A stretch of 24,773 bases of DNA, taken from a virus. The stretch is from positions 1-24,773 of IMG/VR virus record IMGVR_UViG_3300024054_000056, one strand, 5' to 3'. Below, in pieces: positions 10,501 through 23,841 of this stretch. Numbering within the stretch: the first letter of the stretch is position 1; each line of letters begins with the position of its first letter. The notes beneath the pieces are model-generated. The model worked only from the letters and a program-made list of their open reading frames with translations, did not search any database and was not told where the DNA came from. The translations under genes were made by a program, and so were the position numbers.

Positions 10501-11085
10501 ATGGAAACACCCTTCCTGCCGGAACATGGCCTAGAGTGGACGAAGCTAGTAGTCCCCTCGACCTTGCTGCCGGAAGAACTTAAATTCGTCGGGGACGATC
10601 CCGATACGTTTTTCGACTGCCTCGGGAAGATTGCAGTTTATCTGCCCGACTGGGATATTGGTTTTGCTTATTTGCCTAAGCCAAGGTCTTTGCGGACTTG
10701 GCGCAAGCGCGAGGCGCTCAAGCCGCTAGGCAAGCTCGAAGATGCAGTCGGCGCCCTTTTAATCATACATACCGCATGGGTGTTTAGCCTAGCGGCGAAC
10801 GTTCGCAAGGACGATATCTGCCCCTCGCGGCGCGGAAAGACTCCCCTCGCGCCCATCTTGGGGAACACCTATCGAGTTATCAACCTGCGCGGCAATCCGA
10901 TTCGCAGCGCAGCGCAGCTTGCTGATTATGTCGACTGGGCCATGCATCCCGCTCGGCGCTTGCATCTTGTTCGGGCCCACTTCCGCTATTATAAATCCGG
11001 CTTGATCACGCTCGTTCGGGCGCATACGCGGGGCCGCGACACGGGCGAGGTCGATAAGCATTTTACAATCGGCGCCCCGGCCTGA
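10501..11085 (+). CDS. Hypothetical protein with HLVRxHF C-terminal motif
   Basis: A 194-residue protein with GGAGG 7 bases before the ATG. The chain has a hydrophobic middle (EDAVGALLIIHTAWVFSLAANV, about 80-101) that could be a buried helix, and a C-terminal part reading RLHLVRAHFRYYKSG, then LVRAHTRGRDTGEVDKHFTIG. A closing 'HLVRGHF...HxRG' pattern is known to me from a set of short phage and bacterial proteins of unknown function; here Gly is replaced by Ala. There is no signal peptide. It is followed by a strong intrinsic terminator, so it is the last gene of the first rightward unit. Confidence 0.7.
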   Translation: METPFLPEHGLEWTKLVVPSTLLPEELKFVGDDPDTFFDCLGKIAVYLPDWDIGFAYLPKPRSLRTWRKREALKPLGKLEDAVGALLIIHTAWVFSLAANVRKDDICPSRRGKTPLAPILGNTYRVINLRGNPIRSAAQLADYVDWAMHPARRLHLVRAHFRYYKSGLITLVRAHTRGRDTGEVDKHFTIGAPA

Positions 11086-11103: not shown

Positions 11104-11134
11104 TCCCCCGGTACCCTCCGGGGGATTTTTTTTT
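11104..11134 (+). terminator. Intrinsic terminator
   Basis: TCCCCCGG (11104-11111), loop TACCCT, CCGGGGGA (11118-11125), followed by nine T (11126-11134). An 8-bp GC-rich stem with a long T-run is a textbook Rho-independent terminator. It lies 19 bases after the stop of the preceding gene and closes the 9882-11085 unit. Confidence 0.93.
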
Positions 11135-11142
11135 GCCCCCAC

Positions 11143-11467
11143 GCCGGGGGAATTACGGCAGGGGGAAATTATTTCCCACTTTCTTCCCGGATATTCCCGG
11201 ATACATCCGGGTCACCCAATATCTGAATGACCCCCCCTCTCGCCATAAACCCCCTGCCATATATCAATAACTATACCGGGACATAAAAGACCCCCTTGTT
11301 ATAGTGTATTAATTTTTTTTATTTTTTTTTTTTAAGTACTTATACCCCCAAACAATTTCACGGCGCAGCGTGGCGAAAGAGGGGGTCATTCACTTCTTGG
11401 GGGACCAGGATATTTCCGGGGATATCGGGGGGTATTTGCGGAAACAATCACCCCAATTTCCCCCGGC
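11143..11467. repeat. Large imperfect inverted repeat with AT-rich core (origin candidate)
   Basis: Core arms 11186-11244 and 11372-11430 are reverse complements of each other over 59 positions with 48 matches and no gap; the inner 21 bases match at 19 (both contain TGAATGACCCCC). Outer tips also correspond: GCCGGGGGAA at 11143-11152 against TTCCCCCGGC at 11458-11467. The 127-base centre is AT-rich, with T8-A-T12 (11313-11333), the 10-bp palindrome TAAGTACTTA (11333-11342) and ACTATA/TATAGT (11270-11275, 11304-11309). The left arm also has the tandem TCCCGGATAT/TCCCGGATAC and a CCCGGAT-AC-ATCCGGG palindrome. No gene is seen here. Such a layout between a terminator and a promoter fits an origin of replication or a protein-bound control site; this is inference. 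Confidence 0.8.
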
Positions 11468-11501: not shown

Positions 11502-11530
11502 TTGACACGCCCCACCCTCGCGCCTATAAT
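11502..11530 (+). promoter_or_regulatory. Perfect sigma-70 promoter P1
   Basis: TTGACA (11502-11507), a 17-base spacer and TATAAT (11525-11530): full consensus at both boxes. Transcription should start near 11537, 28 bases before the ATG at 11565. The flanks resemble P2: CTTGACACG at the -35 box and CCCTTTG after the -10 box. A small TAAC-A-GTTA palindrome (11544-11552) lies in the leader. Confidence 0.92.
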
Positions 11531-11564: not shown

Positions 11565-11966
11565 ATGACAATGCCGAAGCGAATTGATAGATATGAGGCC
11601 TACTGGCGGGAGATACTAGTTGCAGCGACCCTGGCTGACGCCGCCGGGGAACACTTCGCCGTTACAATACCCTCGACGAACCCACGCTATACGCAGTTAC
11701 GATTCTACGGCTTTCGTGAAGCAGCCCGTCGGCAGGGGATTCCCGGCGACCGCGTCCTCGACCGGCTAACTCCTCGGCTATCGCCGGACGGCCACGGGGT
11801 TACGCTAACTTGGGTCGGCACATCGCAAGCGGACGCCGAAGTCGCCGCAGCAATCGCGGAACAACTCAGGAAGTACACCGCCCCGGCGCAAGCGCCACAG
11901 GAATCGCCAACTCCGCCAGCGAAGCCGGCCGAAACGTGGCTCGACGAGGTCCTTCGCAATGGATAG
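11565..11966 (+). CDS. Hypothetical protein
   Basis: A 133-residue protein, first gene behind promoter P1, with AGGAG (11554-11558 region) before the ATG. The first 80 residues look globular: an N-terminal helix (RYEAYWREILVAATLADAAGE), then HFAVTIPSTNPRYTQLRFYGFREAARRQG, which suggests a small alpha-beta fold. It continues with a helix (ADAEVAAAIAEQLRKYT), a proline-rich linker (about 107-122) and a short end (ETWLDEVLRNG). The proline linker and terminal peptide could be a docking tail. No family recognised. Confidence 0.75.
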   Translation: MTMPKRIDRYEAYWREILVAATLADAAGEHFAVTIPSTNPRYTQLRFYGFREAARRQGIPGDRVLDRLTPRLSPDGHGVTLTWVGTSQADAEVAAAIAEQLRKYTAPAQAPQESPTPPAKPAETWLDEVLRNG

Positions 11967-20915: not shown

Positions 20916-21433
20916 GTCCCGACGTCGTCTGGGACGTCGAGAGCCGGGACGCGCGGCCCCTGCCCGACAACTCTTTCGACTCAATCCTCATGTCCCACGT
21001 GCTCGAACACCTGCGCTTTCCGCTGGTGGCGATGGAAAACCTGTGGCATCTGGCGAAGCCGGGCGGGAAGATACTCATTAAGGTTCCCTACGGCTCCAGT
21101 GATAATGCCTTCGAAGACCCAACGCACGTCCGGCAATACTTCCTTCATTCGTGGGACTACTTCTCTCAAGCCTCCTATGGCGGGGCCGACTACGGCTACC
21201 GAGGGGACTGGAAAATCCACGAGCGCATTCTCAAGATCAAGCCCCACTGGAACCCGGAGCAGTTCGAAAACGACCTCGACGCAATGCTCGAAATCATCAA
21301 CACCCATCGGAACACCGTCGAGGAAATGTCGTGCGTACTCGAAGCCGTTAAGCCGATTCGGGAAGCTGGCACATTTACCGAATCCGCCCCGATTCTGTTC
21401 GAACTTCCACAGCGTCTCGGGGTGGCGGCGTAA
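20819..21433 (+). CDS. Class I SAM-dependent methyltransferase
   Basis: A 204-residue methyltransferase starting at GTG with GAAAGG 8 bases upstream; the open frame extends further up but only as a shadow of the zinc ribbon gene. Motif I is [12 protein letters not shown], motif [10 protein letters not shown], then [16 protein letters not shown] (motif IV region) and [16 protein letters not shown] (motif V), followed by [16 protein letters not shown], typical of small-molecule, sugar or lipid methyltransferases. The C-terminal third ([20 protein letters not shown]...) may be the acceptor cap. No DNA-target motif is seen, so a nucleotide, sugar or protein target is more likely than DNA. It overlaps the polymerase start by one base. 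Confidence 0.8.
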
Positions 21434-23841
21434 TGCGTGTCCCGCCATCCGGGTCGATCCCCGCGACCTACGTCATCGTTGGCGAAGCCCCAGGCTCCGA
21501 CGAAGTTCGGGCGATGCAGCCCTTCGTCGGCCCGAGTGGCCAAGAGCTTAATCGAATCCTGCACGACGCCGGGATTCTCAGGGCCGACTGCTTTACGACG
21601 AACGTCTGCAAACACCGTCCGCCGGGGAACGATATCGACGTCTTTATTTCCGACTCGAAAACCGCGGCGGCAACGCTCCAGTTAACCCACTTCAAAGATG
21701 GCCGGTACTTCAACGACCTCGTCGCCGCCGGCCTCAAGGAACTCGTACATGAGATTGAAACCGCTAAGCCGACGGTGGTTCTCGCCCTCGGTGACACTGC
21801 TCTTTGGGCTCTTACTGGTCTCAGTGGGATTACTAATTGGCGGGGGAGTGTACTTCCTTGCAGTCTGGTGCCTGGTGTTAAGGTAATCCCGACGTATCAC
21901 CCGGCACTCGTCCTCCGGCAGTGGGAATGGCGGCCGACAGTAGTCCACGACTTGAAACGGGCCGTGCGGGAAGCCGGGTTTCCCGAGATTCGCCTTCCCG
22001 ACTACTCCTTCGTCGTCCGGCCAAGCGTCGGCGCAGTGCTCGCGACTCTGGCCGACCTTACTGCATGCTGCGATGCCGAGCCGTTCCTGCTTTCCGTCGA
22101 TATTGAAACCCGCTCGCAACAGATCGCCTGTATCGGCCTCGCTTGGAGTTCCCTCGACGCCCTCTGCATCCCGCTCCTCTGCGTCGAATCCCCCGAGGGC
22201 TACTGGTCACCCGAGGACGAACTCGCCATCACGGTCGCACTCCGCCGACTTCTGACGCATCCGAACTGCTCTGTCATCGGCCAGAATTTCCTCTACGACG
22301 CGCAGTACTTCGCCAAGCAATACGGCTACGTGCCGAACGTCCTAGCCGACACTATGCTGATGCAGCACGTTGCCTTTCCTGGAACGCCGAAGAGTCTCGA
22401 CTACCTGTCGTCGATGTACTGCCGTTTTCATCAGTATTGGAAAGGCGAGGGGAAACTCTGGAACCCCAAGACGACCCCCGAAGAACAACTGTGGACGTAC
22501 AACTGCAAAGACGCTGTTATCACCTTTGAAGTCTACAACACTCTCGTCGGCGTCCTGCACAAGTGCGGCCTGTGGGAAATCTTCCAACGGCAAATGCGGC
22601 TCTTTACGCCCGTACTACGCATGATGCTTCGCGGCGTGCGGATCGACGCCGGGTACCGGAAAGAGCTCGCAACCACGCTCCTCGGGGAAATCGCTGAGCG
22701 CGAAACGTCGATTAATAACATCGCCGGCTTCACACTGAATCCGCGATCGCCCAAACAGATGAAGGCGTTTTTCTACGACGACCTGCGCCTACCGATACAG
22801 TTCAATCGGAAAACCCGTAAGCCGTCGCTGGACGACGAAGCCCTCGACAAGCTGGCGAAGAAGGAAGTCCTCGTGCGGCCCTTGATTAAGCTGATCCGGG
22901 AAATCCGGTCGCTCGGGGTCTTTAATTCGACATTCGTGGGCGCGGCCCTCGATACCGACGGGCGAATTCGTTGCTCGTTTAACATATCCGGCACGGAAAC
23001 GTTTCGATTCTCGTCGAGCGAAAACGCATTCGGCTCAGGTACCAACCTACAGAACATTCCGAAAGGGAAAGAAGATGACGCAAGTCTCTCCGCCGACGAT
23101 CTCCGACTGCCCAATGTTCGAAAACTGTTCATTCCGGATTCCGGCTTCACAATCGCCGACTGTGATCAGTCCGGTGCTGACGCGCAAGTCGTCGCGTGGG
23201 AAGCTAATGACGATATACTTAAACAACTGTTCCGGTCCGGAGTCAAAATACACGCACACAATGCGAAAGATCTGTACGGAGCTGACGCAGGCCCTGACGG
23301 CAAGCGGGAACCGTACTACTCCCGAACCAAGCAGGGAGTACATCTTAGTAACTACGGCGGAACGGCGAGAACTCTTGCGACTACAATTGGAATTACTATT
23401 CACGAGGCTGAAAAATTCCAGCGACGGTGGTTCGACATCCATCCGGGTATTAAAGACTGGCACCGTCGTATTGAATCTGACCTTCAAACACGGCGCTTCG
23501 TGGCAAATCGCTTTGGTTACCGCCGATTCTATTTCGGCCGCGTCGAGGAGTTGCTCCCCGAAGCCCTAGCGTGGATTCCGCAGTCGACTGTCGCCATCGT
23601 TACCAACACCGCATTAGAACGAATCGACCGGGAATTCCCTGCAGCGGAACTCCTGTTACAAGTCCATGACTCATTAGTTTTCCAGTACGCAACTGCCGCC
23701 GAAGAACAAACCCTTAGCCGCATCCGACCCCTGTTAGCCGTCGTCGTCCCGTACGACGACCCGTTAGTTATCCCTTGGGGACTCAAGACGTCGACGAAGT
23801 CATGGGGGGCGTGCGAAGATCGCAAATGGCCCAGGGTGTAA
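21433..23841 (+). CDS. Uracil-DNA glycosylase-like domain fused to family A DNA polymerase
   Basis: An 802-residue replicative enzyme. Residues 1-180 are a family-4-type uracil-DNA glycosylase domain: YVIVGEAPGSDE (G17), FVGPSGQELNR, TTNVCKHRPPGND, LALGDTALWALTG, PTYHPA (H156). Residues 215-380 are a 3'-5' exonuclease: VDIET (D223, E225), VIGQNFLYDAQYF, YNCKDAVI (Y356, D360). The polymerase part has FRFSSSENAFGSGTNLQNIPKG; motif A IADCDQSGADAQVV (D578, with D583 where E is usual); motif B TKQGVHLSNYGGTART (K633, H637, Y641); and motif C QVHDSLVF (D746 followed by Ser rather than Glu). All proofreading residues are present. It belongs to a clade of phage polymerases with His at the nucleotide-discrimination position. 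The Cys-x2-Cys normally before the glycosylase core is missing. Confidence 0.92.
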   Translation: MRVPPSGSIPATYVIVGEAPGSDEVRAMQPFVGPSGQELNRILHDAGILRADCFTTNVCKHRPPGNDIDVFISDSKTAAATLQLTHFKDGRYFNDLVAAGLKELVHEIETAKPTVVLALGDTALWALTGLSGITNWRGSVLPCSLVPGVKVIPTYHPALVLRQWEWRPTVVHDLKRAVREAGFPEIRLPDYSFVVRPSVGAVLATLADLTACCDAEPFLLSVDIETRSQQIACIGLAWSSLDALCIPLLCVESPEGYWSPEDELAITVALRRLLTHPNCSVIGQNFLYDAQYFAKQYGYVPNVLADTMLMQHVAFPGTPKSLDYLSSMYCRFHQYWKGEGKLWNPKTTPEEQLWTYNCKDAVITFEVYNTLVGVLHKCGLWEIFQRQMRLFTPVLRMMLRGVRIDAGYRKELATTLLGEIAERETSINNIAGFTLNPRSPKQMKAFFYDDLRLPIQFNRKTRKPSLDDEALDKLAKKEVLVRPLIKLIREIRSLGVFNSTFVGAALDTDGRIRCSFNISGTETFRFSSSENAFGSGTNLQNIPKGKEDDASLSADDLRLPNVRKLFIPDSGFTIADCDQSGADAQVVAWEANDDILKQLFRSGVKIHAHNAKDLYGADAGPDGKREPYYSRTKQGVHLSNYGGTARTLATTIGITIHEAEKFQRRWFDIHPGIKDWHRRIESDLQTRRFVANRFGYRRFYFGRVEELLPEALAWIPQSTVAIVTNTALERIDREFPAAELLLQVHDSLVFQYATAAEEQTLSRIRPLLAVVVPYDDPLVIPWGLKTSTKSWGACEDRKWPRV

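Follow-up and report, generated by a model that had tools for sequence, protein, structure and literature searches.

What is a large, imperfect inverted repeat with an AT-rich centre doing in the genome of a virus? The repeat lies near the middle of a 24.8 kb virus contig (IMG/VR record IMGVR_UViG_3300024054_000056, positions 1-24,773; the whole of this stretch is referred to as the window), and an original prediction made from the letters alone took it for a candidate replication origin. Analysis of the window and its relatives indicates that the element is real, lineage-wide and conserved in its symmetry, in a group consisting mostly of uncultured bacterial viruses. The function proposed here, at a probability of roughly 0.7 and from sequence comparison, is that of a phage replication origin in which two opposed initiator-binding arrays would flank a DNA-unwinding element. 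The origins of most uncultured phages are unknown, and no description of such an element was found in the open-licence literature.

Anatomy of the inverted repeat

The features of the locus, including the transcription signals on either side of the repeat, are as follows.

11105-11134, + strand: terminator-like hairpin followed by T9 (from sequence), closing the upstream + strand gene at 10501-11085
11143-11152: outermost 10-mer GCCGGGGGAA, perfectly reverse-complementary to 11458-11467 but shifted by 6 nt from the arm register
11162-11245: left arm of the imperfect inverted repeat, C-rich on the + strand, with short tandem repeats; 62 of 84 positions pair
11184-11203, + strand: two tandem 10-bp iteron-like units TTCCCGGATA within the left arm, with degenerate neighbours on both sides
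11246-11370: AT-rich centre, candidate DNA-unwinding element, 125 nt, 34% GC
11313-11333, + strand (early-gene strand): T8-A-T12 tract
11333-11342: 10-bp palindrome TAAGTACTTA in the centre
11371-11454: right arm, pairing without gaps with 11162-11245
11458-11467: outermost 10-mer TTCCCCCGGC, partner of 11143-11152
11502-11530, + strand: sigma-70 promoter with consensus TTGACA-N17-TATAAT (from sequence), reading into the early genes
11565-11966, + strand: first early gene; its 133-aa product belongs to an undescribed family of small proteins with the motif LR..fYgF..AL (profile search)

The repeat is genuine and far above chance: it scores 63.5 bits, whereas 1000 dinucleotide shuffles of the surrounding 600 bp averaged 17.4 (sd 2.1) and did not exceed 29.4. 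Shuffles of the whole window (n=40) gave a top score of 31.6 bits, and this is the sole strong inverted repeat of the window, the runner-up reaching 24 bits. The arms originally described, with 48 of 59 positions paired and no indel, correspond to the same repeat at 11186-11245 and 11371-11430 (49/60, ungapped), which log-odds scoring lengthens to the full arms listed above. The outermost bases do correspond, as had been claimed, in that the two 10-mers are exact reverse complements; however, they are displaced by 6 nt from the register of the main arms and therefore lie outside their ungapped helix. The other anatomical claims held on re-examination: the centre is AT-rich in a GC-rich genome (34% GC versus 59% for the contig), the T8-A-T12 tract and the palindrome TAAGTACTTA are both present within it, and the repeat is flanked by a terminator-like hairpin and by a promoter of consensus sequence. 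The two TTCCCGGATA units in the left arm may represent initiator sites.

To the left of the repeat the window carries leftward-reading terminase, portal and capsid-type genes, the last two named from their position and from comparison with Mel-JY34. To its right are genes for a PD-(D/E)XK nuclease, a Sak4-like ATPase, a ParB/methyltransferase fusion, a uracil-glycosylase/polymerase A fusion and a DUF3987 protein, a member of a predicted replicative helicase family (PMC5862659). No relatives were found for the gene at 10501-11085, and DNA similarity searches of phage records with the repeat region and with the whole window returned nothing useful.

Symmetry maintained across divergent phages

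Relatives were collected through the terminase and the polymerase and subjected to an ungapped inverted-repeat scan. In 22 loci the available sequence reaches 5 kb or more upstream of the terminase; 21 of these have a repeat there (30-117 bits), at 1.6-3.5 kb from the terminase gene. Downstream of the terminase no score exceeds 23 bits. Comparable ungapped repeats around an AT-rich core were detected in about 40 phages in total. The repeat is also found in the Microcystis phage Mel-JY34 (PP438425, at 44116-44304), MW202489, the Desulfofustis phage OP947158, MW202554 and vir526 (BK063670), weakly in Vibrio phage VS-ABTNL-3, and in nine more virus genomes and two metagenome-bin contigs (L127 and L129); deposited complete or near-complete genomes are among the carriers. 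In three loci (L046, L060 and L123) the score falls under the whole-window shuffle maximum of 31.6 bits, and support comes from position together with the A/T tract. The scan gave no repeat in L101 and L058, and a 28-bit match in L128 was considered doubtful and is not relied on. In the closest relative, L004, the contig breaks within the T tract, leaving one arm whose repeats read TTACCCCGTA. This contig and those of L072 and L073 all terminate within a long A/T tract that lies where the core of the repeat is expected or close by, suggesting that the element hinders assembly.

The features kept across phages are symmetry, AT core and position. Arms range from 26 to 141 nt and centres from 50 to 271 nt, and the arm sequences themselves are unmatched between phages: BLAST matches fall nearly all in the T tract, the sole arm match outside it being one of 136 nt between L053 and L054. 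Since hardly any arm similarity persists, the symmetry appears to be renewed independently of the sequence. The proposal that selection acts on symmetry is thus strongly supported, as relatives with unrelated arms retain symmetry, AT core and position. Across 44 loci there is a sharp dip in GC at the dyad, on average 0.30 below genome GC, and the longest homopolymer of the centre, read on the early-gene strand, is T in 35, A in seven and absent in two. The compensatory changes that had been expected in relatives were looked for in a close pair, L105 and L138 (~92% identical). The arms of this pair are less changed than their flanks, with ten changes in 190 arm sites, of which five convert a mismatch to a pair, three convert a pair to a mismatch and one turns a mismatch into another mismatch; no Watson-Crick pair showed a compensatory change on both sides, ten changes being too few to decide the matter.

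Within the arms, many phages carry iteron-array-like tandem units of 7-14 bp that differ from phage to phage (L105, for example, has GGAGGCCACT-like units, L079 units based on GCAAT, L059 CATAGGGCCCACA and L127 units based on TTCCCCTA). When compared in 22 phages with column shuffles that preserve arm pairing, short-period tandem repeats are in excess in the arms (Fisher p=2e-9), 13 phages being individually below 0.05 and the remaining nine lacking significant tandem repeats. For the phage of the window, arm repeats with a period of 6-15 gave a column-shuffle p of 0.03. A helical period of 11 bp shared by all arms was considered and rejected, as the lag has its peak at 8-10 overall and varies by phage.

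A probable replication origin and the alternatives

The earlier suggestion of a link to replication proteins is also supported, since the repeat goes with the polymerase A/DUF3987 module rather than with the terminase. In MW202489 and BK063670 the terminase search found no match at E 0.001, and the matches in OP947158 and MW202554 are weak; all four genomes nevertheless carry the repeat together with polymerase A and DUF3987. The terminase of L105 has distant relatives in L143, L149, L154, L155, L159 and L163, which are without polymerase A, DUF3987 and the repeat, and Lebethron and MW202455 combine a distant polymerase A with no DUF3987 and no repeat. Caulobacter phage Kuura is an exception, having polymerase A and DUF3987 yet no AT-cored repeat. 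DUF3987 occurs in most near-complete genomes but is missing in certain fragments and in the L105 contig (40.6 kb), which makes the association between repeat and replication genes strong but not absolute. Separately, in the IMG/VR contig 3300005437_000018 (loci L043/L065) the polymerase A relative is broken over several frames with stops; a repeat is present there (33 bits), and DUF3987 and a close terminase were not found.

Symmetry, AT core, arm repeats, position, neighbouring promoter and replication-gene association are established by anatomy and comparison, and it is on these that the origin reading is built. Arrays of short initiator-binding repeats would face one another over the AT-rich unwinding element. 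The initiator would be a phage protein made early, with the DUF3987 ATPase and the product of the first early gene as possible candidates; it would bind both arrays in mirror orientation and then open the T-rich core, allowing one replisome to be loaded per direction and replication to proceed bidirectionally. Selection on symmetry and the replication-gene link favour the predicted origin, whereas GC skew shows no sign change in the window. The skew switch anticipated at the locus is thus missing from the window, but four of the six complete relatives have their cumulative minimum at the repeat (and one of the six has its maximum there), a mixed picture that is confounded by gene strand and is not decisive.

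Known origins offer partial parallels. In the herpes simplex virus OriS, inverted initiator sites flank an AT-rich spacer and their spacing is important (PMC12543377). The likeness, inverted sites on either side of an AT-rich spacer, is one of architecture only, as OriS has few boxes and belongs to an unrelated virus group, in contrast to the arrays of phage-specific repeats described here. In lambda and in iteron plasmids, repeated initiator sites adjoin an A+T-rich region where the DNA opens, and there is transcription close by (PMC5043065). Tandem short repeats and an adjacent AT-rich region are both found in the present element; however, those systems have their array to one side only of the AT-rich region, whereas here there are two mirror arrays whose unit length and sequence vary from phage to phage. 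The origins of the PLE satellite and of RepA_N plasmids have semi-palindromic iterons, with inverted sub-repeats that converge on a poly-A tract (PMC7145576). These sub-repeats are 3-13 bp long and of one iteron type, unlike the 26-141 bp arms and 50-271 bp cores found here, and none of the scanned proteins of the window could be recognised as RepA_N.

Alternatively, the element could be a transcriptional control region, with the arms serving as operator arrays for a phage regulator of the rightward early promoter (and in some phages of a leftward one as well). A sigma-70-like promoter often lies just to the right of the repeat, and the small protein that the first gene encodes could be an autoregulator. 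Among 43 loci, a rightward sigma-70-like site beside the repeat exceeds the random 95th percentile in 21, compared with three on the opposite strand, but this leaves about half of the phages with no strong promoter adjoining the repeat. Moreover, the T tract of the window ends ~170 bp upstream of the promoter, and an operator does not need two mirror arms of 60-90 bp around a melting core. Control as the sole function is accordingly judged unlikely. Origin and control functions may nevertheless coincide in one element, because the lambda origin is activated by transcription from PR (PMC5043065).

The proximity of the large terminase gene, 1.6-3.5 kb away in this group, raises the idea that terminase recognises the element for packaging or end formation (a pac/cos site). 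However, genes lie between the repeat and the terminase, the repeat persists alongside unrelated or barely related terminases while following the replication module, and its core is spanned inside contigs and in circular records, which makes a packaging site very unlikely. That the region is transcribed into a long structured non-coding RNA, the alternative named in the original prediction, is highly improbable. The folding check did return an RNA fold far more stable than shuffles (z -7.5), a result expected of any such repeat. Over 22 phages, however, the arm mismatches comprise 71 G-T (wobble pairs on the plus strand), 76 A-C (wobble pairs on the minus strand) and 215 others, so that neither strand is favoured, which argues against an RNA acting from one strand. 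Additionally, the arms are ungapped over up to 141 bp, and the window has no Rfam match at gathering score. The lack of wobble bias and the long ungapped arms would fit selection on double-stranded DNA. A mobile or recombination element (MITE-like or a resolution site) or an assembly artefact is scarcely credible, even though such elements typically have inverted repeats and the L004 contig ends within the T tract, as the repeat occurs as a single copy in a single place in very divergent phages, with unrelated arms, in many independent assemblies and in deposited complete genomes. A protelomerase resolution site was also considered and rejected, since this requires a long palindrome without a large spacer and the centre measures 125 nt here and 50-271 nt in relatives.

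Under the preferred reading as a replication origin, the element is of practical use: it can be found by symmetry alone, at a predictable place, in phages too divergent to align, allowing candidate origins to be located in metagenomic genomes where sequence similarity fails. A more tentative extension, offered as a possibility that is on balance doubtful, is that the element defines a lineage-wide class of origin in which symmetry and arrays are kept while the repeat sequence turns over. The repeats of each phage might then form a private code recognised by a partner that evolves fast, perhaps the small protein, or the arms might be recognised as extruded hairpins and not by their sequence.

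The small protein family and other neighbours

The family to which the product of the first early gene belongs was found by profile search at 28 loci (27 non-redundant phages with a match) and adjoins the repeat in 22 of the 27. Searches against Pfam, PHROGs and NCBIfam gave no usable match, a lone DUF348 match in one member being C-terminal and outside the shared domain. An AlphaFold2 model of the small protein is confident (pLDDT 89) and alpha/beta, and a Foldseek search of the PDB and BFVD with it returned nothing at an E threshold of 0.001; the VIA-align rows, with a Z of 5.3 at best, were too weak to name a fold. The protein is a candidate only for an origin-binding or regulatory role, as initiator or as regulator. 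With a linked protein family at hand, both origin function and the co-evolution of initiator and repeat become directly testable. Copies of the family also occur several kb away from the repeat, all on the minus strand (L025:989-1279, L112:4505-4831, L106:1924-2187 and L090:3049-3453).

Two gene fusions were observed among the genes to the right of the repeat. At 18976-20271 (+ strand), beside the replication genes, a ParB N-terminal domain is fused to an N6/N4 DNA methylase; a methylase gene is found at the equivalent position in Mel-JY34, and a ParB-like protein in OP947158. At 21433-23841 (+ strand), a uracil-DNA-glycosylase-like domain forms an N-terminal fusion on a family A DNA polymerase with 3'-5' exonuclease, an arrangement that aligns over its full length in several relatives.
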